From assembly GCA_946527885.1 (NCBI GenBank), contig CAMMYO010000002.1:1-59567 (forward strand): a DNA stretch of 59,567 bases. Reading direction: 5' to 3'. Of this stretch, positions 12,571 through 55,383 are shown one piece after another. The translations under genes and the position numbers were made by a program. Each line of letters begins with the position of its first letter. The first letter of the stretch is position 1. This DNA is from an uncultured Candidatus Saccharibacteria bacterium (GTDB lineage Bacteria; Patescibacteriota; Saccharimonadia; Saccharimonadales; Saccharimonadaceae). The notes under the pieces are model-generated. The model was not told the origin of the DNA and made no database searches. It worked only from the letters and a program-made list of their open reading frames with translations.

Positions 12571-13998
12571 ATGTCAGACAAGTGGCCGGCTATCTTAAAT
12601 GCCGTAAAAGCCGAAGTTTCCGAAATGGCGTTCGAGTCATATTTTACGAACCTCAAGTATGTAAGCTGTGAAAACGATACGCTTACAATTTCTGCACCAA
12701 GCGTTTTTTTGCAGACGCAAATCGATAAAAAATATCGCGGGATTGTTATAGATGCTGCAAATAGCTGCGGTTTACCCTGCTCTGATCTAAATGTTATCGT
12801 TAAGAGTACCGAAAGCCAGAAGTCTACAGTTATAAAACGCGGCGCTTATGAAATTCGACCAGATAATGCACCGCAAACGATTTCGACTAGCTACACACCA
12901 CCGAGCACTGCGCCGAGAATGGCTCCGAGTGGCAATATTACAACCTACGCCGGCGTCAAACGCTTTACGACTACTGATAATGGCCTCAATAAAAAGTATC
13001 GCCTCGATAATTATATTGTCGGCAGCAATAATGATGTTGCCGTAAATGCCGCGCTTTCCGTGATCGAGAATCCCGGAACACGCTACAACCCACTGTTTAT
13101 ATATGGTGGTCCTGGTCTTGGAAAAACACATTTAATCCAGGCGATTGGTAATGAAATTCTCGAGCGCAACCCACAGATGAAGGTGCTCTATGTTACGATT
13201 GAACAGTTCTACCACGATTTCGTCGAGGCAATGCGCAAGAAGATTGAGGGCTTTACTGAGAAATATCGCAATGTTGATGTTTTGATCGTTGACGACTTTC
13301 AAGGTATTGTCGGTAAGGAAAAATCCCAAGACGAATTCTTTCATACTTTTAATGAGCTCGATCAGCACAATAAACAAGTAATCGTAAGTAGTGATAGGCG
13401 CGCCGATCAAATTGCAACCGTCGACGAACGTCTCGCCTCGCGCCTAATGCAAGGCATTCCGATCGATATTCAGATGCCGGACTTTGAGGTTCGCTGCGCA
13501 ATCATTAAGATGAAAGCCGATATCGCGCATCAAGATATTGATGATGCTTCGGTTGAATATATCGCTGGTCTTGGCTGTCGTAATATTCGCGAACTAGAAG
13601 GTGTTCTAAACCAAGTATTCTTGCGCGCAGATTTACGCAATAAAACAGTAGCTGAAGTCATTAAAGAAGATTTCGCCGATACAACTCAGCTTGCGCCGGC
13701 GCAACGACAGGCTTCTATTCAGCCAAAGAAACTGGTAGAAAAAGTCGCGAAGTACTACGGTTTGACTAGCGATGACCTGTTCGGCACATGCCGCGTTAAA
13801 AATATCAATACCGCGCGACAGATTAGCTGGTATTTGATGAGCGAAGAGTTGAAGATGAGTACGGTTAAGATCGGTTCGGAATTTAGCAAGGATCATACAA
13901 CGATTATGAGTGGCCTAAAGAAGATACGTGGCTCCATAAAGACGGATTTTAGTCTACGTGAGCAAATTTCAGAGCTTCGGGAGCAGTTATATGCCTGA
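12571..13998 (+). CDS. dnaA: Chromosomal replication initiator DnaA
   Basis: PLFIYGGPGLGKTHLIQAIGNE, DVLIVDDFQ, SKDHTTIMSGLKKI (DnaA box-binding). Confidence 0.98.
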   Translation: MSDKWPAILNAVKAEVSEMAFESYFTNLKYVSCENDTLTISAPSVFLQTQIDKKYRGIVIDAANSCGLPCSDLNVIVKSTESQKSTVIKRGAYEIRPDNAPQTISTSYTPPSTAPRMAPSGNITTYAGVKRFTTTDNGLNKKYRLDNYIVGSNNDVAVNAALSVIENPGTRYNPLFIYGGPGLGKTHLIQAIGNEILERNPQMKVLYVTIEQFYHDFVEAMRKKIEGFTEKYRNVDVLIVDDFQGIVGKEKSQDEFFHTFNELDQHNKQVIVSSDRRADQIATVDERLASRLMQGIPIDIQMPDFEVRCAIIKMKADIAHQDIDDASVEYIAGLGCRNIRELEGVLNQVFLRADLRNKTVAEVIKEDFADTTQLAPAQRQASIQPKKLVEKVAKYYGLTSDDLFGTCRVKNINTARQISWYLMSEELKMSTVKIGSEFSKDHTTIMSGLKKIRGSIKTDFSLREQISELREQLYA

Positions 13999-30051: not shown

Positions 30052-30408
30052 ATGAGCTCAAACAATAAGAAAATATTTCAAAAGGTGCTAACAGCTGTCT
30101 TTGTTTGCGTCTTTGCGGCTAGCGCGCTAGTCGTGTCAAATGCATACGCCGAAGGCGATTGTATGTTTTTGAATCCGTGCGATATGGAAGGGATTGCGGA
30201 ATCTGCAGTTACAGCTTTAACTGGTGCTGTTTACGTCGCGGGCGGCGTTGGCGTAATTATTTGTGGTATCATCTGGGCGACTGCGCTAGATAATGATGGT
30301 CGTGTAGCGATGGCGAAGCGGCGCATGACGGAAATTATTGTTGGCGTAGCGGTATTTGCTTTAATGGATGCAATTATTACTGTGCTTGGTCTAAGGAGCG
30401 ATGGATAA
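30052..30408 (+). CDS. VirB2/TrbC pilin-like protein
   Basis: Signal-peptide-like N-terminus and two TM helices; first gene of the pilin cluster. Confidence 0.7.
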   Translation: MSSNNKKIFQKVLTAVFVCVFAASALVVSNAYAEGDCMFLNPCDMEGIAESAVTALTGAVYVAGGVGVIICGIIWATALDNDGRVAMAKRRMTEIIVGVAVFALMDAIITVLGLRSDG

Positions 30409-30411
30409 AGT

Positions 30412-30957
30412 ATGAGCGTCTTTTCGTATTTTGGTATTCAGTTAGGTACTCCGCTTAACTATGATGCTTTCAACGGCGGCAGCATTGAAGGCATTATGAA
30501 TGGTATCTATGAAAACATCGGCAATATCATGGGTCAGGTTTTGACCGTTATGGGTATTGTTGGTTTGATTGGTATCGTATATGGCGCCTTGATGTATTCT
30601 ATGGCAGGCGCAAGTCCAGATAAGGCCGGAAAAGGTAAGAAAGCGATTACGAACTCGATAATCGGTACGATTATTTGTGGTGTTGGTACTACGGTCTTGA
30701 GTGCCATTTATGGTATTATGCAGGCTGCTGATTTGAATACTGTTATTACGACGATAGTTGACGAGCTTGCTTTCTGGGTTGGCGCGGTTTCGATTACGAT
30801 GATTGTTTACGGCGCATTGCTCTACGCGCTTGGTGGCACGAATCCTTCGAATACGGCAAAAGGAAAGCAAGCGATTACGATGGCTTGTATCGGTATGGCG
30901 ATCGCAATGTTGGCTGAGGCGATTTTGCACTTCGTAACAAATGCGGTGGGCTTGTAA
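30412..30957 (+). CDS. VirB2-like double pilin (two fused units)
   Basis: Two copies of TM-loop-TM: GASPDKAGKGKKAITNSIIGTIICG and GTNPSNTAKGKQAITMACIGMAIAM. Confidence 0.75.
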   Translation: MSVFSYFGIQLGTPLNYDAFNGGSIEGIMNGIYENIGNIMGQVLTVMGIVGLIGIVYGALMYSMAGASPDKAGKGKKAITNSIIGTIICGVGTTVLSAIYGIMQAADLNTVITTIVDELAFWVGAVSITMIVYGALLYALGGTNPSNTAKGKQAITMACIGMAIAMLAEAILHFVTNAVGL

Positions 30958-30973
30958 TTAATAGGGGTAATAT

Positions 30974-31594
30974 ATGAAAAATGCATTAAAGAAAATCTTA
31001 CTCGGGATGGCACTAATTTGCGGTAGTGTTGGCGTGTGCTTGACTTTGTCGCAAAATGTTGATGCCTGCCCTATTGATTCTAGGTTGTGCTTTAGCGAAG
31101 GATCGATTGATAACGTAAAAGATACATCGGCGAATCTTCGCAATACCGTGATGTCGTCAATCGAAATTTTAGCGGCACTTGTGGGCGCAGTTTCGATTAT
31201 GGGCATTATGTATAACGCAATGATGTATTCTTTCTCTTTGGGCGATCCTGGAAAAGCAAGTAAGGCGAAGCAAGGTATCGTTTTTTCGATTACCGGTGCG
31301 GTTATCGCGGCTGGTGCCACGATTATTACGGGTCTCGTGGCGATGGTGGCGAATGTTGGAGATCTCTCGGAACTTCCGGCTGGTATTCTTACGCTTGCAA
31401 ACTGGTTTGCGATTATGACCGGAAGCGGTATGTTGCTAGCGGCTGCATATGGCGGTTTCTTGATGGCGACCTCGGCCGGAAATCCGCAAAAAGTTCAGCT
31501 GGGCAAAAAGTGTATTATTGCGGGCATCACTGGTATTGTGATTACGGTGTTTGCTCATATATTGCTTGGTCTGTTTGTAGGTGCTATAGGTTAG
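30974..31594 (+). CDS. VirB2-like double pilin
   Basis: SLGDPGKASKAKQGIVFSITGAVIAAG and SAGNPQKVQLGKKCIIAGITGIVITVF. Confidence 0.75.
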   Translation: MKNALKKILLGMALICGSVGVCLTLSQNVDACPIDSRLCFSEGSIDNVKDTSANLRNTVMSSIEILAALVGAVSIMGIMYNAMMYSFSLGDPGKASKAKQGIVFSITGAVIAAGATIITGLVAMVANVGDLSELPAGILTLANWFAIMTGSGMLLAAAYGGFLMATSAGNPQKVQLGKKCIIAGITGIVITVFAHILLGLFVGAIG

Positions 31595-31664
31595 TCTTGC
31601 AAAAGATAGTTCGTATATTATAAAATATAACCAGAATAACATTTTCTACTAAGAAGGAGAAAAG

Positions 31665-32201
31665 ATGAAAAATATAAAAAGTATCTTGAAGGCCGGCGCT
31701 CTAGCGATTCTTGCTACCGTTATGATTGCGTCGCCTACGTTTGCGGATTGTCCAAATCTTCCGGGCACTCCAAGCAACTACCCTGATCTCTACTTCAACA
31801 GCGAACATGCTTCGCCTGGAAACGGGTTTGTTCAGTACTGCCAGCGCGCTCGCTTGACGGCCGAAGATGGCTCTGAGTCTACCTATTACATTTACGGTAA
31901 ATCGACCGCAGCTTGTGCTCAGGCTGGTGTTGCTACTTCTGATGGCAATATTTGTACTGAAGCTACTAGCTTAACTTTGAACGAGATTGTCTCGCAGGTT
32001 ATCAGCACGATTATTTATATCATTGGTATCGTTGCGGTTATCATGATTATTCTTGGCGGTATTCACTATGCTACTTCCCAGGGCGATCCTGCTAAGGTTA
32101 AGAAAGGTAAGGATACAATCCTTTACGGTATCATTGGTCTCGTAATCGCGATTCTTGCTTACGCAATTGTTAACTTCGTTCTCGAAGCTCTTAACAGATA
32201 A
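31665..32201 (+). CDS. VirB2-like pilin with Cys-containing N-terminal domain
   Basis: Signal peptide; SQGDPAKVKKGKDTILYGIIGLVIAILAYAIVNFVL. Confidence 0.8.
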   Translation: MKNIKSILKAGALAILATVMIASPTFADCPNLPGTPSNYPDLYFNSEHASPGNGFVQYCQRARLTAEDGSESTYYIYGKSTAACAQAGVATSDGNICTEATSLTLNEIVSQVISTIIYIIGIVAVIMIILGGIHYATSQGDPAKVKKGKDTILYGIIGLVIAILAYAIVNFVLEALNR

Positions 32202-32212
32202 TATCGTTTCTC

Positions 32213-32243
32213 TGCTCCGCTATCAGTTTGATAGCGGAGTTTT
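32213..32243 (+). terminator. Terminator inside the pilin cluster
   Basis: CTCCGCTATCAGTTTGATAGCGGAGTTTTTG. Confidence 0.85.
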
Positions 32244-32297
32244 TGTTGGCAAAAAATCGGTTTGATGTTATATTATACATTAGATAAGGAGAATAAA

Positions 32298-32678
32298 ATG
32301 AGTAAAATTAAAAATGCATTAGCGATTGCTGGAACTACTATTACTTGGGGCGCATTAAACGCTTTCAATAAGGTTTCTGCTATGAGCGCACACGACGCTG
32401 CAAATAGAGCAAAAGTTGGCGGCGGATTCGATGATTCGGAGACCGGTGATATTTCGGTTGATATTCGCAGCATCTTTAACTTTATTTTCGGCGTGATGGG
32501 TATTGTTGCTGTGATTGTAATTATCTTGGGTGGCTTCAATTTCATGACTTCGACTGGCGATCCTGGTAAGGTAAAGAAAGGCAAGGATACGATTTTGTGG
32601 GGTGTCGTTGGTTTGTTGGTTGTGCTCTTCTCGTTCGCAATTGTGAACTTCATCTTGAACGCAATTAGTGGAGAGTAG
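32298..32678 (+). CDS. VirB2-like pilin
   Basis: MSKIKNALAIAGTT...STGDPGKVKKGKDTILWGVVGLLVVLFSFAIVNFIL; start chosen after a GGAG. Confidence 0.8.
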   Translation: MSKIKNALAIAGTTITWGALNAFNKVSAMSAHDAANRAKVGGGFDDSETGDISVDIRSIFNFIFGVMGIVAVIVIILGGFNFMTSTGDPGKVKKGKDTILWGVVGLLVVLFSFAIVNFILNAISGE

Positions 32679-32679
32679 G

Positions 32680-33306
32680 ATGAAGACGTCAAGTAAGATT
32701 GCAATTGCTTCTGGTTCGGTGTTTGCTAGTATTGCTGCCCTTTTGATCAGGGGTCATGCGTTTGCTGCGTATAGTATTGGAGATAAGGTGTGTCACACTG
32801 CTGGCTGTGCCGACGGCGACCCTACTGGTGCCGTAGCTGGCATAGTTGAGACGATTACGAATGCGATTATTGGCATAGTTGGTGTCTTGGCCGTACTGAT
32901 GATTGTTTGGGGTGGCATTCAGATGATGACCTCTTCGGGCGATCCTGGTAAGGTAAAGAAAGGCAAGGACACGGTTATCTGGGGTCTTATCGGTATGGTA
33001 ATTGCTATCTTTGCCTATACGATTAGAGATATGGTTTACAACGCAGTTACGGGTAATGCTGGCGGCATCGATGGCACACTTGCTTGGATTGGCACAGAAG
33101 TTGGCCAAGTTGTAACGCTAATATTCGGTATTATCGGTATCATTGCGGTCGGTGTTACGATTTGGGGTGGTATCCAGATGATGATCTCGACTGGTGACCC
33201 TGGCAAGATTAAGAAAGGCAAAGATACTTTGATTTGGGGTATTGTCGGTCTTTTGATTGCCCTATTCTCCTACACGATTGTTGGCTTCGTGCTAAATTCA
33301 ATCTAG
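32680..33306 (+). CDS. VirB2-like double pilin
   Basis: Two near-identical units: SSGDPGKVKKGKDTVIWGLIGMVIAIFAYTI and STGDPGKIKKGKDTLIWGIVGLLIALFSYTI. Confidence 0.82.
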   Translation: MKTSSKIAIASGSVFASIAALLIRGHAFAAYSIGDKVCHTAGCADGDPTGAVAGIVETITNAIIGIVGVLAVLMIVWGGIQMMTSSGDPGKVKKGKDTVIWGLIGMVIAIFAYTIRDMVYNAVTGNAGGIDGTLAWIGTEVGQVVTLIFGIIGIIAVGVTIWGGIQMMISTGDPGKIKKGKDTLIWGIVGLLIALFSYTIVGFVLNSI

Positions 33307-34032: not shown

Positions 34033-34701
34033 GTGAAAAATACAATAATCAGAAATTTGGGCGAAATGTTTTGTCCGCACACCTGTATTTCTTGCGGTAG
34101 GATTGGTGGAGTAATTTGTGATTGTTGTAAAAATAACATCATTAATCAAGAATGACGCTTTTGTTTAAACTGCGGGTCGTCATTAAGGGATGGTTTCTGC
34201 GCTGAATGCAGGGATTTGCCATTCGATAGGCAGTTTTGCGTCGGGGCGCGAATTGGTGCTTTGGAATTGCTGATTAACGACTACAAGTTTAAGGCGGTGC
34301 GAGCAGCGCGGTTTGACTTGGTTGATATGTTGAGCGCGCGGATTGATAGACTTCCAGGTATGAGGGTGGTGCCGATTCCGACGATTCCGCGACATGTACG
34401 GGAGCGTGGCTTCGATCATATTGGAAGCTTAGCGAAAGAATTGGCGCTCAGAATTGATGGAGTGTATTGCCCCGCGCTAACGAGAAACAAAAATACGACT
34501 CAGGTGGGAGCCGATAAGGAAAAGCGGATTGCGCAAGCGACCGAGGCGTTTAGTTGCGGCAAGAAAATGGAGCCAGGCGCGGATTATCTGCTGGTTGACG
34601 ATATTTGGACAACTGGCAGTAGTATGAAATCCGCAGCGAGGCTCCTAAGAGCGAATGGAGCGAGAGCAGTTAGTATTGCTCTGCTGGCGCGTAGTGCCTA
34701 G
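34033..34701 (+). pseudogene. comF: ComF-family phosphoribosyltransferase interrupted by one in-frame TGA (34153-34155); distal ORF 34216..34701
   Basis: GTG 34033 after GGAGG; frame reads VKNTIIRNLGEMFCPHTCISCGRIGGVICDCCKNNIINQE-TGA-RFCLNCGSSLRDGFCAECRDLPFDRQFCVGARIGALE...LLVDDIWTTGSSMKSAARLLRANGA; Zn-finger cysteines on both sides of the TGA. Confidence 0.8.
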
Positions 34702-35117
34702 TTCGAGACAGTGCCGATAGCGCCGATGACGAAGTTTACGATTGCATACGAGAAGACGGCGATGATAAGGCCGATGATGGCATACATAATAGTATTCTTT
34801 GCGTCGGTAACTTTCTTGCTGTCGCCGCCGGAAAGGATGTAGCGGATGCCGCCAAGAACTAGCATGATAACGGCAATAATACCAACGATGTAAAGAATCG
34901 TATTGGTGATGCGTGAAAATGCACCGTCAGTGCCGACGAGTTCGACAGGCATGCCTGCACCGCGAGCGGCATTGGCGCCGGCCTGGGCTGGGTTGGTGTT
35001 TAGAGTTGCTTCTTCGGTGGCGAATACCTTGTGTGCGGCTAGGCTAATGTTTGCACTAGCGAGAACAGCGGCAGCGGCCATCTGTGTGGTAAATTTGTTC
35101 ACTTTTATTGCTCCCAT
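34698..35117 (-). CDS. VirB2-like pilin (seventh, detached, opposite strand)
   Basis: SGGDSKKVTDAKNTIMYAIIGLIIAVFSYAIVNFVIGAI. Confidence 0.8.
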   Translation of the reverse strand: MGAIKVNKFTTQMAAAAVLASANISLAAHKVFATEEATLNTNPAQAGANAARGAGMPVELVGTDGAFSRITNTILYIVGIIAVIMLVLGGIRYILSGGDSKKVTDAKNTIMYAIIGLIIAVFSYAIVNFVIGAIGTVSN

Positions 35118-35906: not shown

Positions 35907-36437
35907 ATGGACAAGAGTAATGATGCTGCGCAGGATGAATTGCAGCAAGCGATTAATAATATAACGAATGGAGCTGGCGGCGGTGCGTCGAGCAGTGCTG
36001 ATGTTGTAGCGGCGATTGAAAGCCAGGTTGCTGGTAACGCTGCGGCGGCAGGCGCTTTGCCTTTGCCTGAATTCCCTGCCCCGGAAGCGCCAAAAGTTGA
36101 TGAGCCAAAGATTGAGATTGCGGCTGCGCCATTGGATGCTCGTCCAGAAGCTGCGGCAGTTGCAACGAAGGCGATTTATGGTGATCCGGATTTGGATAAG
36201 GTACGCTCGAACGCTTTGAGTGACATTCGCCCAATTTTGGAGAAAATTGATATTAGTGCCGAAAAGAAATTCATGGTTTACCGTGATATTATAGATGTCT
36301 TTGATGACAAAGCCTGCTTTGAGCCTGCCTATGCTGCGGCAAATAAGATTGCCGACGACAAGGAACGCGCAGAAGCATTGCTCTATATCATTGAGAAGAT
36401 TGACGCCCTTGGCATTCAGATGCCGACTGCGAAATAA
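35907..36437 (+). CDS. Hypothetical protein (Ala-rich N-terminus, helical C-terminus)
   Basis: ORF with start MDKSNDAAQDELQQAINN. Confidence 0.7.
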   Translation: MDKSNDAAQDELQQAINNITNGAGGGASSSADVVAAIESQVAGNAAAAGALPLPEFPAPEAPKVDEPKIEIAAAPLDARPEAAAVATKAIYGDPDLDKVRSNALSDIRPILEKIDISAEKKFMVYRDIIDVFDDKACFEPAYAAANKIADDKERAEALLYIIEKIDALGIQMPTAK

Positions 36438-36453
36438 TATAGCTGACTTTTGG

Positions 36454-36485
36454 AAATCCCCTGCTCGCTGGCGGGGGATTTTTGG
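36454..36485 (+). terminator. Terminator of the 35907 gene
   Basis: AAATCCCCTGCTCGCTGGCGGGGGATTTTTGG. Confidence 0.8.
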
Positions 36486-36517: not shown

Positions 36518-36581
36518 TGTGGAGATTGTGGGTTTGCTTGGTGGAGAGCTGTGGAGATTGTGGGTTTGCTTGGTGGAGAGC
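36518..36581 (+). repeat. Perfect tandem duplication, 2 x 32 bp
   Basis: TGTGGAGATTGTGGGTTTGCTTGGTGGAGAGC at 36518-36549 and 36550-36581. Confidence 0.97.
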
Positions 36582-36616: not shown

Positions 36617-36803
36617 GTAAACAATTTATTTACAGCCTGTCGAAAAAACAGATTGTCGGATGTAAACTATTTGTTTACTTTCGTTTCGTTTGTGTTTGGC
36701 GGTAAAGTGATTGTTTACGCTTGAGCAGTAAGGATGGCTGGGTAAAGTATGGGTTTACGCTGAAAATAGATTTGGTTTTAAAATTAGTAAACTTTTTGTT
36801 TAC
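36617..36803. repeat. Array of five 17-bp inverted-repeat sites, consensus GTAAAC-N5-GTTTAC
   Basis: 36617-36633, 36662-36678, 36702-36718, 36742-36758, 36787-36803; start spacing 45/40/40/45 bp. Confidence 0.95.
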
Positions 36804-36848: not shown

Positions 36849-36875
36849 AAGAGTCGAGGTGTGAGCTCGACTCTT
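36849..36875 (-). terminator. Terminator of groEL
   Basis: AAGAGTCGAGGTGTGAGCTCGACTCTT with T-run on the minus strand. Confidence 0.85.
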
Positions 36876-36914: not shown

Positions 36915-38540
36915 TTAGTACATTCCGCCCATGCCGGCGCCAGCGGCGGCATTGTTGTCTTTCTCTGGGAGATCGACGATAAGCGCGCCCATCGTAATAG
37001 TGGTCGCCGCAATGCTAACAGCATTTTGAACAGCTTCGCGTGTGACGCGGGCTGGATCGATGACGCCAGCCTTCTTGAGGTCGATGAGGCCCTTGTCTGG
37101 GGTCATAACGTTGATGCCCTGGCCGTCTTTGGCGGCTTCAACCTGAGCGAGCAAGGCCTGAGAATTGAGACCGGCATTTTCCATAATCTGGACAAATGGG
37201 GCTTTGAGGGCGTTCTTGAGGATGGTTTGTCCTGCATTGTCGTCCTTAATGCCCTTGCTGAGGTTGACTAGAGTGACGCCGCCGCCAGGAACGATGCCTT
37301 CGTCGAGAGCGGCTTTGGTTGCAGCAACCGCATCGTCGACGCGATATTTCTTCTCGTCGATTTCGGTTTCGGTGGCACCGCCGACCTTGATGATAGCGAC
37401 GCGGCCTTCGAGAGCGGCTGCGCGTTTGTTGTATTCGCCGGTTTCGTAATCGGATTTGCTGGCTTCGGCCTGGGCTTTGATTTGAGCGATGCGAGCCTTG
37501 ACTGCCTTGCTGTCACCATTGCCCTTGATGATAGTGGTTTCGTCCTTGGTGGCAATAATCTTATGGGCGGAACCGAGAACTTCGAGACCAGCGTCTTCGA
37601 GGCTCATGCCCTTGTCGCTAGAAATGACGGTTGCACCGGTAAGGATTGCGATATCTTCCATGATTTCCTTGCGGCGATCGCCAAAGGCTGGAGCTTTGAG
37701 AACGAGCGTATTGAAGACGCCCTTGAGCTTATTGAGAACGAGTACGCTGAGCGCTTCGCCTTCAACTTCTTCGGCGATAATAACGAGGTCTTTGCGACCG
37801 GTCTGAGCCATCTTCTCGAGGAATGGAACGATGTCTTGGACGCTAGAGATCTTCTTGTCAGTGATAAGGATTTCTGGCTTGTCGAAAACGGCTTCTTGGC
37901 GGTTTGCGTCGGTAACGAAGAATGCGGAAGCGAAGCCCTTGTCGTAGCTGTAGCCTTCGGTGATTTCGGATTGCATTTCAAGGCCTTGGCCCTGCTCGAC
38001 GGTTACGACGCCGTCTTTGCCGATCTTGGCGATGACATCAGCGATGAGTTTACCGATTTCGGCGTCGCCAGCAGAAATCGTGGCAACTTCGGCAATCTTC
38101 TTATCGTCGCCGTCGATTTTCTCGGCGATCTGGTCGATACCCTTGACGATTTCAGCGCCAGCGGCTTCGATGCCCTTGCGGAGATCCATTGGGTTGTGAC
38201 CTGCCGCGATAAGTTTATTAGCTTCAGCGATAATATTATAGGTCAAAACGGTAACAGTAGTAGTACCATCGCCGGCGGCTTTGTTGAGCTTCTGTGCGGC
38301 AGTCTTGATAAGTTTGGCGCCCATTTGGTAGCCGAGTGTTTCATCGTCATTGTTGCCGAGATCGACGGCTTCGGCAACGGTTACGCCATCATGCGTAATA
38401 GTTGGGGCTCCGTAGCTTTTTTCGATTACAACGTTGCGGCCTTTTGGACCGAAAGTGACTTTGACTGCGTCATATAGCGCCTTGGCGCCGCCGAGAACTT
38501 TCTCGCGAGCTTCGGCATCATAAAAAATCTTCTTTGCCAT
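36915..38540 (-). CDS. groEL: Chaperonin GroEL
   Basis: AAGDGTTTVTVL, VTFGPKGRNVVIEKSYGAPTITHDGVTVA, C-terminal GMGGMY. Confidence 0.98.
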   Translation of the reverse strand: MAKKIFYDAEAREKVLGGAKALYDAVKVTFGPKGRNVVIEKSYGAPTITHDGVTVAEAVDLGNNDDETLGYQMGAKLIKTAAQKLNKAAGDGTTTVTVLTYNIIAEANKLIAAGHNPMDLRKGIEAAGAEIVKGIDQIAEKIDGDDKKIAEVATISAGDAEIGKLIADVIAKIGKDGVVTVEQGQGLEMQSEITEGYSYDKGFASAFFVTDANRQEAVFDKPEILITDKKISSVQDIVPFLEKMAQTGRKDLVIIAEEVEGEALSVLVLNKLKGVFNTLVLKAPAFGDRRKEIMEDIAILTGATVISSDKGMSLEDAGLEVLGSAHKIIATKDETTIIKGNGDSKAVKARIAQIKAQAEASKSDYETGEYNKRAAALEGRVAIIKVGGATETEIDEKKYRVDDAVAATKAALDEGIVPGGGVTLVNLSKGIKDDNAGQTILKNALKAPFVQIMENAGLNSQALLAQVEAAKDGQGINVMTPDKGLIDLKKAGVIDPARVTREAVQNAVSIAATTITMGALIVDLPEKDNNAAAGAGMGGMY

Positions 38541-39708: not shown

Positions 39709-40968
39709 ATGGGTATGAAAGAGAAAATTCCGTTTTATGACAAACTTGTATTGCCGTATCATTTCGGCAAAGCGGCGCTGTATGGCAGCCTGAGTGGCTT
39801 CCCGGCGAAGCGCATGACTGTGATCGGGGTGACTGGCACGAACGGCAAGACGACGACTTCTTTCATGATTTGGAAAATGCTGAACTCGGCTGGTCGGAAG
39901 GCCGGCTTGATGACGACGGTTGGTTGGGGTGTCGACGAAGTGCATGAGCAAGTCGAGCACATGACGACTGTCGACGTGAAGCCATTAAATGAGCGCATCA
40001 AGAAGATTGCGGATGCGGGCGCGGAGTTTTTGGTGCTTGAGTTGACTAGCCATGCGCTTTCGCAGTATCGCGATCTCGGTATTCCGGTAGACGTGGCGGT
40101 AATGACGAATGTGACGCACGAGCATTTGGATTATCACAAGACATTTGAGAACTATCGTGACGCGAAGCGCAAGTTGTTTAAGAAGGCGCGTTTTGGCGTG
40201 ATTAATGCGGATGATCCGTCGGCGGAGTTTTTTGAGAGCGATATTGAGAAATATACGACTTACGGTGTTGAGTATGGTGAGTTGAAGGCTGAGAAGATTA
40301 AGCTGAAGGCAGATGGCGTTGAGTATGTCTGCTCGGATGGCCTGAAGATAAAAACTCAAGTGGCGGGTAAATTTAATGTTTACAATTCTCTGGCCTGTGT
40401 GGCGGTCGGTCGTCGTTTGGGCCTGAGTGATGAAGAAATTGCGACTGGTATCGCAGCGTTGGATTCGGTCGAAGGCCGTATGGTGCGCATCGATGAAGGA
40501 CAGGATTTTGCGGTGATTATGGATTATGCACATACGCCGGACGCGTTTGAAAAGTTGTTGCCGGATATGAAAAAGGCTACCAGTGGCCGCTTGATTGTAA
40601 TGTTTGGCTCGGCGGGTGGTCGTCGCGATCCTTCGAAGCGTAAACCAATGGGCGAGATTGCGGGCAAATTCGCAGATATCGTGGTTTTGACCGAGGAAGA
40701 CGATCGCGATACTCCTGGGATGGAGATTTTGGAACAGATTGCGGAAGGAGCGCGTGAATCTGGCAAGAAGGACGATAAGGACTTGTTCTTGACGCTAGAC
40801 CGACCATCGGCGATTTTGCAGGCTTGCAAGATGGCGAAGGCTGGCGATACGGTGATGTTCCTTGGCAAAGGAAACGAGAAGACGATTGAGCGAGCGGATG
40901 GCGCACACGCATACTATGAGCTCGATGAAATTAAGAAAGCTTTGAGCAAGGTCGTCAAGAAAAAATAA
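39709..40968 (+). CDS. murE: MurE-like Mur ligase (UDP-MurNAc-tripeptide synthetase family)
   Basis: VIGVTGTNGKTTTSFMIWKML, MTNVTHEHLDYHKTFENYRDAKRKLF, VIMDYAHTPDAFEKLL. Confidence 0.88.
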   Translation: MGMKEKIPFYDKLVLPYHFGKAALYGSLSGFPAKRMTVIGVTGTNGKTTTSFMIWKMLNSAGRKAGLMTTVGWGVDEVHEQVEHMTTVDVKPLNERIKKIADAGAEFLVLELTSHALSQYRDLGIPVDVAVMTNVTHEHLDYHKTFENYRDAKRKLFKKARFGVINADDPSAEFFESDIEKYTTYGVEYGELKAEKIKLKADGVEYVCSDGLKIKTQVAGKFNVYNSLACVAVGRRLGLSDEEIATGIAALDSVEGRMVRIDEGQDFAVIMDYAHTPDAFEKLLPDMKKATSGRLIVMFGSAGGRRDPSKRKPMGEIAGKFADIVVLTEEDDRDTPGMEILEQIAEGARESGKKDDKDLFLTLDRPSAILQACKMAKAGDTVMFLGKGNEKTIERADGAHAYYELDEIKKALSKVVKKK

Positions 40969-42607: not shown

Positions 42608-45600
42608 CTAGCTGCGGTGCAGCTTTTTGCGTATTGTGACGAAGATGCCACCTGCGACAATCGAGCTAGCAAGGATTGCAAGGCTGGCAATAATCGTATC
42701 ACCGGTGTTTGGTGTGTTTGTCGGAGTGTTCGCTGGTGAATCGTCGTCGGTCGTACCGGCCGGGTTGCTTGGGTCGCTTGGATCGCTTGGATTATTTTCT
42801 GGCTGATTGGATTCTTCTTTGATGAGCGTGTGAGTGAAGGTGCAGATGATATTGTTACTGTTGGCAACATCTTCGCAGTTCTTCTCTGTTGTGTAGCGCT
42901 CAACAGCAACATCAGGAACGGAATAGTTGGTCCTGTCGATGAGTGGGAGATCGGAAATTGTAGTCTGGGTATCGATTGAGGCGAGATTGTGTGTTGTGCT
43001 CTCTGCTCCGTCTTTGCTGAGCGTATAGGTGACGCCAGTAGCTGGGCGAAGGTTGCGCTCGTTGTCGTTATCGACCCAAACGTGCTTGATGGTGATATTG
43101 AATTTTTCCTCAAGCTTATGAGTGAAGGTGCAGACGACGTCGTTACTGTTGGCAACATCTTCGCAGTTCTTCTCTGTTGTGTAGCGCTCAACAGCAACAT
43201 CAGGAACGGAATATTTGGCTTTGTCGAGAAGTGGGAGATTTGCGAAGGTGTCTTGAGCGTCAATATTGCCAAGCGTAAGAGTATCAGTGGCTGCGCCGCT
43301 TTTATCGAGAGTGTACTCGACGCTACCTGGGCGAGAGCCGTAGGCGTTATCGGCGTCATTCCAAACATGCTTGACGGTAATATTGAAGTTTGCGGAGAGG
43401 GTGTGGGTGAAGGTCCAAGTTAGACCGTCATCGCTGACCTTGAGTGCAGTGGTGTAGTCGTCGATTGGATTGGCGGCAACTGAGAAATCGTCAATGAGGC
43501 CGACTGGAACATTCTCGAAGTAGAAGTCGTCCGTATTGCCGGTGACGGCTAGCTGATGGGTGTTGTCGATGGTATTGCCGTAAAGAAGATTGAAATCGAC
43601 GGTTGGTGGGCGGAGATTGTAGCGGTTATCTTCGTCGTTCCAGATATTGACGACCTTGATTTTACTGAGAGTGAGAGCGCTTTTGAATGTATAAGTGTGC
43701 GTTCTCTTGTTATAGCTTTTGGTGGTAGTGTAATTCGGAATAGCATCAAGGTTGACGTCGTATTGGCCGTCGTAGTACTCGTGTAAATTATGATAATCAA
43801 GAGTGCTCTCGCCGTTGGCGATATTGATAGATGAGCTGTGATCGATAGTTTCGATATCGCGAGTGAGTTTTGGCGTGATGGTGCTTGGGCGAGTATTGTA
43901 TTTGTTGTTGAAATCATCCCACTGTTTAACGACGTGGATGTCGAAGAGATGGTCGATTTGAACGCGCGTGGTATTAGAAGAGATGCCCTCGATTTGCGGA
44001 ACTGGCATACCGGAGTTTTGATCGATGGCGTTCCATTCGGTGCGGAAGTTATTGTATGCAAAAGCGGTGCTTGGATTGTCGGCCGGGGCTTTCATGCGAA
44101 GGAGCGTGTATACGTAGCTATTGGCCGGAATGGTTGTCGGGTTGCCGTTAGCGTCAACGTATTTGAAAGCGATAGATTTGACGAGAGAAGGATCAGTGGT
44201 TCCTTCGATATACTCTTGCCAGCTGTTATCCGAGGTTAGCGAGCCAGGATCGGTGTTTGGTGAATAATAGGTTTTGATATGAATAGGATTGCCATTAGCG
44301 TCGTTTTGAGTTTCGACATAGCTGGTGTCGATGCCAAGGAATTCGCCTTGCCAGTGCTCATTGTTGCCGAAGGCAGCCTCAACAGTATCGTATACTACAA
44401 CGTTGGTAGCCTTACTGTTACCAGTGCGGATGGCGAGCTTGTGATAATATTCGCTGCCGGCGGTGGCGTAGGAATCTTCTGTCGTGTAGGAGTTATTCTG
44501 GTCGGTTTGCGTCGTAGCTTTGATGGATTGCTCTGCTGCGACGGCAGTGAGAATCGAGAAGTCGGTATCTCTTGTGTAGAAGACATCCTCAATGCTTTCG
44601 TCTTCGTCGACGTCTGCATAGGCAGCATTGCCGAAGAAGGTGCCGTCGTCTGGCGTTGGATTCCAAACAATATTGGTTGTGCCGAGCTTATAGCTATCGT
44701 CGTTCGCGACAACAGTCTTTAGAAGATATTTATGGCCTGGGTCTGTTGCCTCGTTTTCGGCATAGACGTCGTATGGGATGCGAATCTTAATATTGAACGA
44801 AGAAATGCTGCCCGAATAATTTGCCAAGTGTGCAAAGAATGGTTTTTCGGAAAAATCGATGTGAGTACGGATGAGTTCTTGGCCGCTATTGCGCCAGTTC
44901 TTTATTATGCTGACTTGAGTATGTGTTTTGACATAGTTACTTAGGTCGGACTGAGTATTGAAGACTGTTGTGCCGTCTAAATTGTAGAGATACTTATAAG
45001 TTTGTTCGGCAGAGGCGCTATTAGCGATTTCTTCTGGGGTTGAAGCAACGGTAACTCCAGGCGGCAAAAGGATATATTGGGTCCAATCGGTAGTTAGATC
45101 TGCTTCTGTAAGATCTTGACGAAGGACGTCAAAATTTAGTTCCTTATCTGAAGATTGTTGAGTAATGTACGCGTTATCTTTGAGCATGCCCTCGTAGCCA
45201 TCGGCAGAGGCATTATATGCAACCGATTGGCTGTCGAGAGTTGGGCCGCCCGTTGCAACATTTAGGATAGGTGCAACCGGGCGTATGTCGTAGCTATATT
45301 CATGGAAAGCACGCTGTTGGTAGTGTCCGTATGTGGCTTGGTCGTATGGTGCGAGGTTTTCCTGTGTTAGTTCGGAGGCGTATGATTCGAAAGGAACGAC
45401 GTTTAAGGTTTGTCCATTGCGTTGCACTTCTGCATAGGAGAAGTTGTACAGTTTGCCGTATTGCGGCACGTTTTGGGAGTGATAGTTTGCTTCGGTGAAG
45501 ATAGGATAATCTGCGATACCTTTGTCGAGGTTCTTGATTACGATTTTCCAAGCAACGCTATTGTCTGGTAGATTCCAGGTTGGTTGCATAGTGTAGTAAC

Positions 45601-47317
45601 CATCTATCCATCTGCCGCATGGGTGGGCGTGGTTGCCGGTGACGTTGTTGAGTCTGCGATAATCAGATTCGCCGCTGAGTCGGTAGTAGACCTCCACGTC
45701 GTAGTTTGCGCAGGTAAAATCTTCTCCGTTGGCGGCAACGAGCTCGTATGGCGCCCTAATGCGAGCGAAGGAGTGTTCGTCGTCGTTAAATTTGGTGACG
45801 GTGCCAGTGGTTCGGTCTTCGTAGAAAGCGATATCGTCGCCAATTATTAAGTCGTACGGCTCGGAGCCAAGATTTAGAGCGCTAACATGAATGTCGTAGT
45901 AGAAGGAAGCACCAGCTTTTGTGCGGAGACTCTGATAGGTTGCATAATTGACGTCGCCATGAGCGTTTACGGTGTTAAGGGCTTTTGAAACACTAACAGA
46001 GTTACCTTCGTAGGTAAGCGCAAAATTACGAAGATCAATTTCTGCCGTGTCGCTATCAAGCAGTTCTTCCTGGTCGGATAGGAAATAAGTGCCGCGGGAA
46101 TAAACAGTATTGTCGACTTTATTAGTCCCTAGTGTTTCGTTAAACTTATCTTTTGGAAATGCGACGTAGATTTCGTAACAGGTGTTGAAGACATAGACGC
46201 TGGAGTTTTTTTCAATTCTACAATAAGAAGTGGTCTTTGCTGGAGATGATGAGATGATGTAGTTGCCCTCATCATTCTTGGTCATTGGCTGCTTGTCTGA
46301 ATTGAAGACAAGAGCGTCGTCGCTGAAAGTATCTTCCCAACGCCAGTCTTTTACGGGGATGTAGGTGCTTCTGCCTTGTGCATACACATAGTTTTCTGGG
46401 CCGGTTTCTGGCGTGTAGGGGGCTTCGTAAGGGGTAGTGGTTTGAGTGTCGGTTTTTTGTTTTACACTGGCGCCGTAATAGACATAATGAACCCAAGTGT
46501 AGTCGTTTGCGTTGGCGACATTGAAGCCATCGAGAGAGTCGAGTTTGCGCGGGATGGTATTGACGGTATAATTGCGTTTTTTCCATTCGACAGCGGTGTC
46601 TTTAGAGAGGTATATATTAATAGGATTGCTACTGACTGTATTATTGAGGGTAGCCACGCCTTCGTATGCCAATTCTTCATGGAAGGTTTCTCCGAAGAAC
46701 GGAGCACCGTTGGCGCCGCCATTGATATGGAACTGCAAGGTTACCTGGAAGCTTCCTTGGAGGCTAGTGTTTTTTTCGATGGTCTTGAGGTTTCTAAAGA
46801 GGCAGTAGTTTTGATCGCTTGGGCATTCATATTCCCAATCGTAATCAATGGTAGAAGTGCCTTTTAGAGGTTTAGCGGAGACGTTATAGCTATCTAGCCA
46901 GAGGAATGCAGAGTCGGTCCATTCTTGGCCGAGAGCGTTGATTGTTGTGTATTGTCTTCTAGTTGAGTAACCTGGGCGAATAGGAAGCTCGAGCTTAATT
47001 TCGAGCTGTCTAGGATTGTACGTTTTATCGACGATGTTTGCCGAGTAGTTTGTCTGGATAGTGAATGTGCGGGAGCCGCCGTATGTTTGGTCGACCGGCA
47101 CGCTCCAAGTTTGTTGCGTAAGTTCTGTGTTGCCATTGTTAACGGTACTATCGTAGAAGCTGAGGCTGAGATTCCAAACGTCGCTGCTAACTTCTGCGAG
47201 TGCGCTGGTTTTATTGTTGGCCTGAATGATAGCCGTAATAGAAAAACCGCTTAGAATTGCGATAAAAATAGCAGCAAAAAGCCGCCTTAAAAACTTTGAC
47301 CTTCGTCGAATACTCAT
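42608..47317 (-). CDS. Giant cell-wall-anchored surface protein with four Cna-B-like repeats and sortase-type C-terminus
   Basis: Signal peptide; VVKQWDDFNNKYNTRP, VVNIWNDEDNRYNLRP, VKHVWNDADNAYGSRP, IKHVWVDNDNERNLRP; C-terminal NTPNTGDTIIASLAILASSIVAGGIFVTIRKKLHRS. Confidence 0.88.
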   Translation of the reverse strand: MSIRRRSKFLRRLFAAIFIAILSGFSITAIIQANNKTSALAEVSSDVWNLSLSFYDSTVNNGNTELTQQTWSVPVDQTYGGSRTFTIQTNYSANIVDKTYNPRQLEIKLELPIRPGYSTRRQYTTINALGQEWTDSAFLWLDSYNVSAKPLKGTSTIDYDWEYECPSDQNYCLFRNLKTIEKNTSLQGSFQVTLQFHINGGANGAPFFGETFHEELAYEGVATLNNTVSSNPINIYLSKDTAVEWKKRNYTVNTIPRKLDSLDGFNVANANDYTWVHYVYYGASVKQKTDTQTTTPYEAPYTPETGPENYVYAQGRSTYIPVKDWRWEDTFSDDALVFNSDKQPMTKNDEGNYIISSSPAKTTSYCRIEKNSSVYVFNTCYEIYVAFPKDKFNETLGTNKVDNTVYSRGTYFLSDQEELLDSDTAEIDLRNFALTYEGNSVSVSKALNTVNAHGDVNYATYQSLRTKAGASFYYDIHVSALNLGSEPYDLIIGDDIAFYEDRTTGTVTKFNDDEHSFARIRAPYELVAANGEDFTCANYDVEVYYRLSGESDYRRLNNVTGNHAHPCGRWIDGYYTMQPTWNLPDNSVAWKIVIKNLDKGIADYPIFTEANYHSQNVPQYGKLYNFSYAEVQRNGQTLNVVPFESYASELTQENLAPYDQATYGHYQQRAFHEYSYDIRPVAPILNVATGGPTLDSQSVAYNASADGYEGMLKDNAYITQQSSDKELNFDVLRQDLTEADLTTDWTQYILLPPGVTVASTPEEIANSASAEQTYKYLYNLDGTTVFNTQSDLSNYVKTHTQVSIIKNWRNSGQELIRTHIDFSEKPFFAHLANYSGSISSFNIKIRIPYDVYAENEATDPGHKYLLKTVVANDDSYKLGTTNIVWNPTPDDGTFFGNAAYADVDEDESIEDVFYTRDTDFSILTAVAAEQSIKATTQTDQNNSYTTEDSYATAGSEYYHKLAIRTGNSKATNVVVYDTVEAAFGNNEHWQGEFLGIDTSYVETQNDANGNPIHIKTYYSPNTDPGSLTSDNSWQEYIEGTTDPSLVKSIAFKYVDANGNPTTIPANSYVYTLLRMKAPADNPSTAFAYNNFRTEWNAIDQNSGMPVPQIEGISSNTTRVQIDHLFDIHVVKQWDDFNNKYNTRPSTITPKLTRDIETIDHSSSINIANGESTLDYHNLHEYYDGQYDVNLDAIPNYTTTKSYNKRTHTYTFKSALTLSKIKVVNIWNDEDNRYNLRPPTVDFNLLYGNTIDNTHQLAVTGNTDDFYFENVPVGLIDDFSVAANPIDDYTTALKVSDDGLTWTFTHTLSANFNITVKHVWNDADNAYGSRPGSVEYTLDKSGAATDTLTLGNIDAQDTFANLPLLDKAKYSVPDVAVERYTTEKNCEDVANSNDVVCTFTHKLEEKFNITIKHVWVDNDNERNLRPATGVTYTLSKDGAESTTHNLASIDTQTTISDLPLIDRTNYSVPDVAVERYTTEKNCEDVANSNNIICTFTHTLIKEESNQPENNPSDPSDPSNPAGTTDDDSPANTPTNTPNTGDTIIASLAILASSIVAGGIFVTIRKKLHRS
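42854..43213 (-). repeat. Direct 72-bp repeats, period 288 bp, within the adhesin gene
   Basis: 42854-42925 and 43142-43213: GTTACTGTTGGCAACATCTTCGCAG...GGAACGGAATA, encoding SVPDVAVERYTTEKNCEDVANSN. Confidence 0.92.
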
Positions 47318-55366: not shown

Positions 55367-55383
55367 GTAAATTTTTAGTTTAC
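55367..55383. promoter_or_regulatory. Solitary copy of the 17-bp dyad
   Basis: GTAAATTTTTAGTTTAC flanked by GC..GC, matching the array at 36617-36803. Confidence 0.7.

Follow-up and report, generated by a model that had tools for sequence, protein, structure and literature searches.

Chromosome-organizing systems such as MatP/matS, Noc/NBS, and SlmA/SBS use single sites, present in dozens or more over broad domains, together with conserved proteins. The ends of Tn7, Mu, and IS21 carry directional binding sites, which are repeated in inverted orientation at both ends with fixed spacing. In Saccharibacteria-like epibionts, whose genomes are reduced, little non-essential DNA is expected. Here, we analyzed an array of short palindromes in a 59,567-nucleotide stretch of DNA (the window) from an uncultured Candidatus Saccharibacteria bacterium, and searched 930 kb in 52 contigs (C numbers) of the genome holding it (G000) for the same palindrome. 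Literature searches found no published account of such arrays.

The array (36617..36803, no strand assigned), identified from the sequence and a site scan, consists of five 17-bp palindromes. Site 1 (GTAAACAATTTATTTAC, 36617..36633) and site 2 (GTAAACTATTTGTTTAC, 36662..36678) are the outer and inner members of the left terminal doublet, 45 bp apart, site 3 (GTAAAGTGATTGTTTAC, 36702..36718) forms the center, and site 4 (GTAAAGTATGGGTTTAC, 36742..36758) and site 5 (GTAAACTTTTTGTTTAC, 36787..36803) are the inner and outer members of the right terminal doublet, again 45 bp apart. The positions and sequences of the five 17-mers in the initial annotation, as well as their spacing of 45/40/40/45, were thus reproduced. 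Its placement of the array in a convergent gap was also confirmed, between the stop of a gene for an unknown protein without a Pfam match (35907..36437, plus strand), which neighbors groEL in relatives too, and the stop of groEL (36915..38540, minus strand), with a hairpin on each side. The left edge of this island is a terminator-like hairpin with a T-run 3' of the 35907 gene (36454..36485, plus strand, read from the sequence), and the right edge is a terminator-like hairpin 3' of groEL (36849..36875, no strand assigned), which was computed and whose position and sequence were read. The distance of about 24 kb to oriC was right, because dnaA starts at position 12571.

Eight sites with at most one mismatch to GTAAACN5GTTTAC were observed in the window, including the five of the cluster. 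For the window, a first-order Markov model predicted 0.11 sites, and pairs within 200 bp arose in none of 300 simulations; the clustering of the five palindromes is far above chance. Solitary near-matches were located at 40367 (in a murE-like gene), 55367 (intergenic), and 55740 (in a short ORF). The one at 55367-55383 is a good match 5' of a valS-like gene and is possibly a single operator. Additionally, a perfect 32-bp tandem duplication (two copies of TGTGGAGATTGTGGGTTTGCTTGGTGGAGAGC) lies to the left of the array at 36518-36581. Elsewhere in the window, we noticed by eye a run of tandem genes whose products, small membrane proteins, contain recurring GDPGKVKKGKDTILWG-like motifs and resemble VirB2/TrbC-type pilins (30052-33306 and 34698-35117), and a 1569-aa surface-protein-like ORF (42608-47317), whose C-terminal part is repetitive and whose NTGDT-hydrophobic-RKK end resembles a sorting signal.

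The island is not a solitary one, as the window array is one of about seven in G000. With a matrix built from the palindrome clusters of this genome, seven arrays were resolved, all of them intergenic. The six further arrays are found at C4:22303-22489 (spacing 45/40/40/45), C6:9149-9292 and C6:9733-9876 (both 45/37/45), C18:10530-10760 (45/38/45/41/45), C23:4826-4983 (45/51/45), and C34:1006-1240 (45/50/27/51/45). Each array has four to six sites, and the terminal doublet measures exactly 45 bp at all 14 of the 14 ends, with inner spacings ranging from 27 to 51. An extra abutting half-site (GTTTAC|GTAAAC) closes several arrays, and the outer ends of the G000 arrays are inverted (TTTTTGTTTACGTAAAC). 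When the two arrays with 45/40/40/45 spacing (window and C4) were compared, site identity was 80% and spacer identity 33% (25% in reverse), and 15 spacers of 28 nt showed a mean identity of 29%, the chance level, indicating that sites and spacing are retained while the spacers turn over.

A similar density of sites elsewhere, which the initial annotation had taken to count against its reading, was found only in the form of about six more discrete arrays. Solitary near-matches look like background, with 13 of the 15 examined in G000 lying inside ORFs, and therefore the array, not the single site, appears to be the functional unit. As expected of a site-specific nucleoid organizer, sites occur in many places, the seven arrays standing above the background of single matches. 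The orientation of the adjacent genes is mixed, being convergent (groEL, C4, and glyS-relA), tandem (infB, MTase, and C34), or divergent (dnaG and ftsE-wHTH).

An element acting as RNA, such as a hairpin regulator, an attenuator, or a CRISPR-like repeat, would agree with the folding z-score of -3.2 on the plus strand. However, folding on the minus strand is just as significant (z -3.1), as expected of palindromic DNA, no Rfam family matched, the spacers are unconserved, and the window array is placed between two terminator-like hairpins. With folding weakly significant on both strands alike, we ruled out this explanation, which is extremely improbable. It is almost certain that the array is real and acts at the DNA level.

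The distribution among relatives was examined by scanning 100 genomes for the 45-bp doublet. G000 gave 14 hits and G024, of the same genus, gave eight, and a lone hit with two mismatches was found in G055; among the 100 relatives tested with the palindrome motif, repeated doublets occurred only in G024. With the motif reversed as a control, neither G000 nor G024 gave a hit, and G059 gave a single one by chance. Exact scans for the doublet yielded three unrelated loci in 85,462 genomes and five in viral contigs, which is about chance in collections that possibly leave out near relatives. The G024 arrays have the 45-bp doublet at their left ends and 44-45 bp at their right ends, and the outer ends of most read CTAGCAAAA-N2-GTAAAC, also written CTAGCAAAAC-GGTAAAC, in inverted orientation. 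Three of the five G024 arrays share loci with G000 (prfB-ftsE, rpsA-infB, and MTase-DGK), differing in inner site numbers or gaps. The conservation in close relatives predicted by the initial annotation holds at the clade level, as two of the closest relatives carry such arrays, but not for the groEL-side copy, which is absent in G003, G034, and G026 (gaps of 97-188 bp) and would lie past the contig end in G024.

Presence or absence of an array at single loci was seen between relatives. At some of these loci, gaps bearing an array in G000 or G024 measure 283-938 bp, compared with tight gaps of 3-57 bp in array-free relatives (31-57 bp at prfB-ftsE, 10-20 bp at MTase-DGK, and 3-33 bp between YgjP and the next gene), and the dnaG array of G024 is missing from the orthologous gap in G000. 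These differences would suit the ends of a small MITE-like mobile element, in which inverted doublets of transposase sites 45 bp apart enclose an interior cargo that is usually nothing and once a winged helix-turn-helix (wHTH) gene; the invariant terminal doublets around an interior varying to about 460 bp with the gene and the inverted outer ends in G000 and in most G024 arrays would fit as well. Nevertheless, no transposase of the rve class (Mu/Tn7/IS21-type), the class searched, was found in the incomplete assemblies of G000, G003, G024, and G034, and neither a target duplication nor a clean insertion boundary was recognized. Moreover, a recent common ancestor is not evident in the spacers, although almost every site is intact and no decayed arrays were recognized, unlike what relics would show. 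We therefore consider mobile-element ends doubtful, and a transposon of the Mu/Tn7/IS21 type is unlikely.

The rpsA-infB gap is long in array-free relatives too, where it holds other genes. The region following rpsA is a hot spot, in which every species has its own accessory gene or array (L104 3790-4810, L109 4160-5070, L114 1055-2010, and L018 9418-9938). A different dispersed intergenic element was observed in G034 (C1:62442, 185070, 299283, 328276, 437195, 469072, and 524294), with equivalents in G035. Its 9-bp unit, GTCAAACTW, is repeated in tandem, and the copies read have inverted ends (CGCAGGTTTGAC...GTCAAACCTGCG). In the rpsA-infB gap, one copy lies directly 3' of a further wHTH homologue.

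The congener G003 has mirror-symmetric arrays of another site, a directional 14-mer (GCAGATAGTAAAGT) rather than a palindrome, on its contigs C8 (++++/-----) and C9, at 3210 (+++/----), 5798 (++/--), 8810 (++/--), and 10376 (+++/--). Many spacings are at 25, 34-36, and 44-46 bp, near one-turn steps, and the array sites are mostly on two seemingly adjacent contigs near a wHTH gene, not near ori. Among the species compared, G024 and G003 are nearest to G000 by marker identity (for PrfB, for example, 92-93% versus 70-82%), and therefore the G003 and G000/G024 arrays look like one system with a changed motif rather than independent inventions, as judged from these sequences. Because the G003 site is directional, the dimer geometry must differ there.

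The position of the window array 24 kb from dnaA and the clustering of the palindromes might recall a centromere, a parS-like site, or a replication-control site near oriC, as the initial annotation had proposed. Of 45 congeners, 41 encode a canonical ParB, G000 and G003 among them, and in G000 it is encoded separately (C34:9046); the array-linked gene is a wHTH gene. Neither the window nor the parB-bearing contig L020 contains a match to the parS 16-mer TGTTTCACGTGAAACA at up to three mismatches, and the 45-bp doublet recurs in only one of 100 relatives. In addition, markers neighboring the arrays map round the chromosome of the near-complete relatives G034 and G035, which rules out clustering of the G000 arrays at ori. 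With arrays round the chromosome and a canonical ParB encoded separately, it is therefore very improbable that the arrays are the partition site or have an ori-linked role of this kind. The broader proposal of a DNA-level protein-binding array was well supported by the conservation of sites and spacing between unconserved spacers, by the location of the arrays outside genes, and by equal folding on both strands, whereas its parS, centromere, and ori-linked replication-control variants were not supported.

The candidate wHTH gene (G000:C6:9347-9733, L063 1501-1887) lies between the two C6 arrays. In the orthologous G024 array a gene for a wHTH homologue lies between the two halves of the array, and in G003 a homologue follows the C9:5798 array. 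The array ends 55 bp (G000), 56 bp (G024), or 118 bp (G003) upstream of the wHTH start codon. Homologues were found in 20 of 45 congeners by profile search, and the recognition helix ISRQNFYxHRK (G000 and G003) or ISKQNFYGHRK (G024) occurs only in those three species. The other homologues of the genus have a different helix, and simple repeat scans, which could miss degenerate or distant arrays, found no such array near them (G026, G021, G035:C5:35309, and others). An AlphaFold2 model from an 18-row alignment predicts a winged HTH (pLDDT 86, order E-H-H-E-E-H). Foldseek searches with this prediction gave Bro-N/antirepressor proteins as the best, although weak, matches in BFVD (best E 1.3e-3), and weak matches in the PDB (best E 0.3), among them the DNA-bridging DdrC (7QVB/7UDI, E 0.5-1.1). 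No Pfam match was obtained for array-linked members, and Bro-N and P22_AR_N were below the cut-off for one homologue. Linkage in three related species, which are not independent lineages, the correlated helix, and the predicted fold suggest that the wHTH protein is probably the binder of the arrays. A homologue is also conserved beside a Wzz-like gene (L016:5338-5718 and G003:C9:6107); in the Wzz-side copy of G000, the recognition helix is changed (ISRQS-TGA-SAHL) and TGA occurs twice in frame.

In three species an array lies 55-118 bp 5' of the wHTH gene, and some arrays lie 5' of infB, MTase, and dnaG; this could also reflect an ordinary autoregulated repressor, the other arrays serving as operators of a small regulon or as titrating decoys. 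However, no promoter is expected where arrays lie between convergent gene ends (groEL in the window, C4 in G000, and glyS-relA in G024), the neighbors are unrelated housekeeping genes that differ between species, and the mirror symmetry and fixed doublet spacing go beyond the needs of an operator, making this reading quite unlikely. As the arrays lie between genes whatever the orientation of the neighbors (convergent, tandem, or divergent), a structural complex is likelier than a promoter switch.

Codon 41 of the wHTH gene is an in-frame TGA in G000 as well as in G024. The gene is bracketed by arrays and adjoins prfB, which encodes release factor 2. Paralogous groups in G026, G031, G005, G036, and G021 have TGA at codons 38-43, and other copies have it elsewhere. 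In most copies scored as full-length, TGA is the sole internal stop; the TAA or TAG codons reported by the search are located where matches end or belong to weak hits. Small wHTH genes interrupted by TGA include G000:C6:9347-9733, L058, L065-L068, L088-L091, L075, and L016:5338-5718, with a homologous wing position in several groups; the AlphaFold2 model places the codon in the wing strand. Beyond the TGA, the wzz-adjacent group has a dS of 0.35-0.46 and a dN of 0.03-0.07, indicating that selection at the protein level continues after the stop. TGA serves as an ordinary stop in 24 of 167 long ORFs elsewhere in the G000 DNA examined. With its in-frame TGA, the candidate gene needs readthrough to yield a full-length protein. 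The tRNA-Sec model matched all control genomes and was thus uninformative on selenocysteine as the reason for the UGA. Reassignment of UGA to Trp is reported for another Patescibacteriota family (PMC13092985), in passages without mention of the present group. These wHTH genes are a candidate case of stop-codon readthrough, and the conserved in-frame UGA of the partner gene would be such a case separately from the arrays. It is conceivable, but highly improbable, that in this clade-specific, genome-wide system the binder is made only by UGA readthrough and that array occupancy could report translation-termination capacity.

Overall, we modestly favor as the best explanation that a dedicated small protein uses the dispersed arrays, of which there are at least seven, as binding platforms at the DNA level. 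Against this reading stand the readthrough that the in-frame TGA demands, the directional site of G003, and the weak Foldseek matches. Each 17-bp palindrome would most likely hold one dimer of the Bro-N/RhuM-like wHTH protein, dimers on sites 45 bp apart would form the terminal doublets, and four to six sites per array may assemble a cooperative, mirror-symmetric nucleoprotein complex. The wHTH gene would probably be autoregulated via the array that ends 55 bp before the start codon. Such complexes might bridge, insulate, or anchor chromosomal segments; a structural rather than a regulatory or selfish role is proposed tentatively from the context of the arrays. If true, this would be a lineage-specific chromosome-organizing or selfish system, in which a small wHTH gene accompanies a motif that varies from one sister species to another.

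Compared with known systems, the arrays resemble the ends of Tn7, Mu, and IS21 in having repeated, inverted sites with fixed spacing at both ends, but differ in that neither an rve transposase, nor clean boundaries, nor cargo other than one wHTH gene was found with them. They share with ParB-parS clustered palindromic sites and an expected nucleoprotein complex, whereas the canonical ParB is separate here and the motif, protein fold, and distribution differ. The candidate protein is similar to the N-terminal wHTH of Bro-N, P22_AR_N, and RhuM in its predicted fold, its best structural matches being viral Bro-N/antirepressors and its distant relatives in the wHTH family search resembling RhuM by reading; unlike these, it is short, stand-alone, below Pfam cut-offs, array-linked, and interrupted by an in-frame UGA. 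DdrC of Deinococcus radiodurans, a weak structural match (E 0.5-1.1), condenses and bridges DNA but differs in its sequence-nonspecific binding (PMC5436757; PDB 7QVB/7UDI). Finally, MatP/matS, Noc/NBS, and SlmA/SBS are comparable in their scattered short palindromes, dedicated DNA-binding protein (a candidate here), and DNA-level function, and the present system differs from them in its approximately seven arrays of four to six sites, fixed doublet spacing, clade-specific motif, and Bro-N/RhuM-like wHTH candidate.
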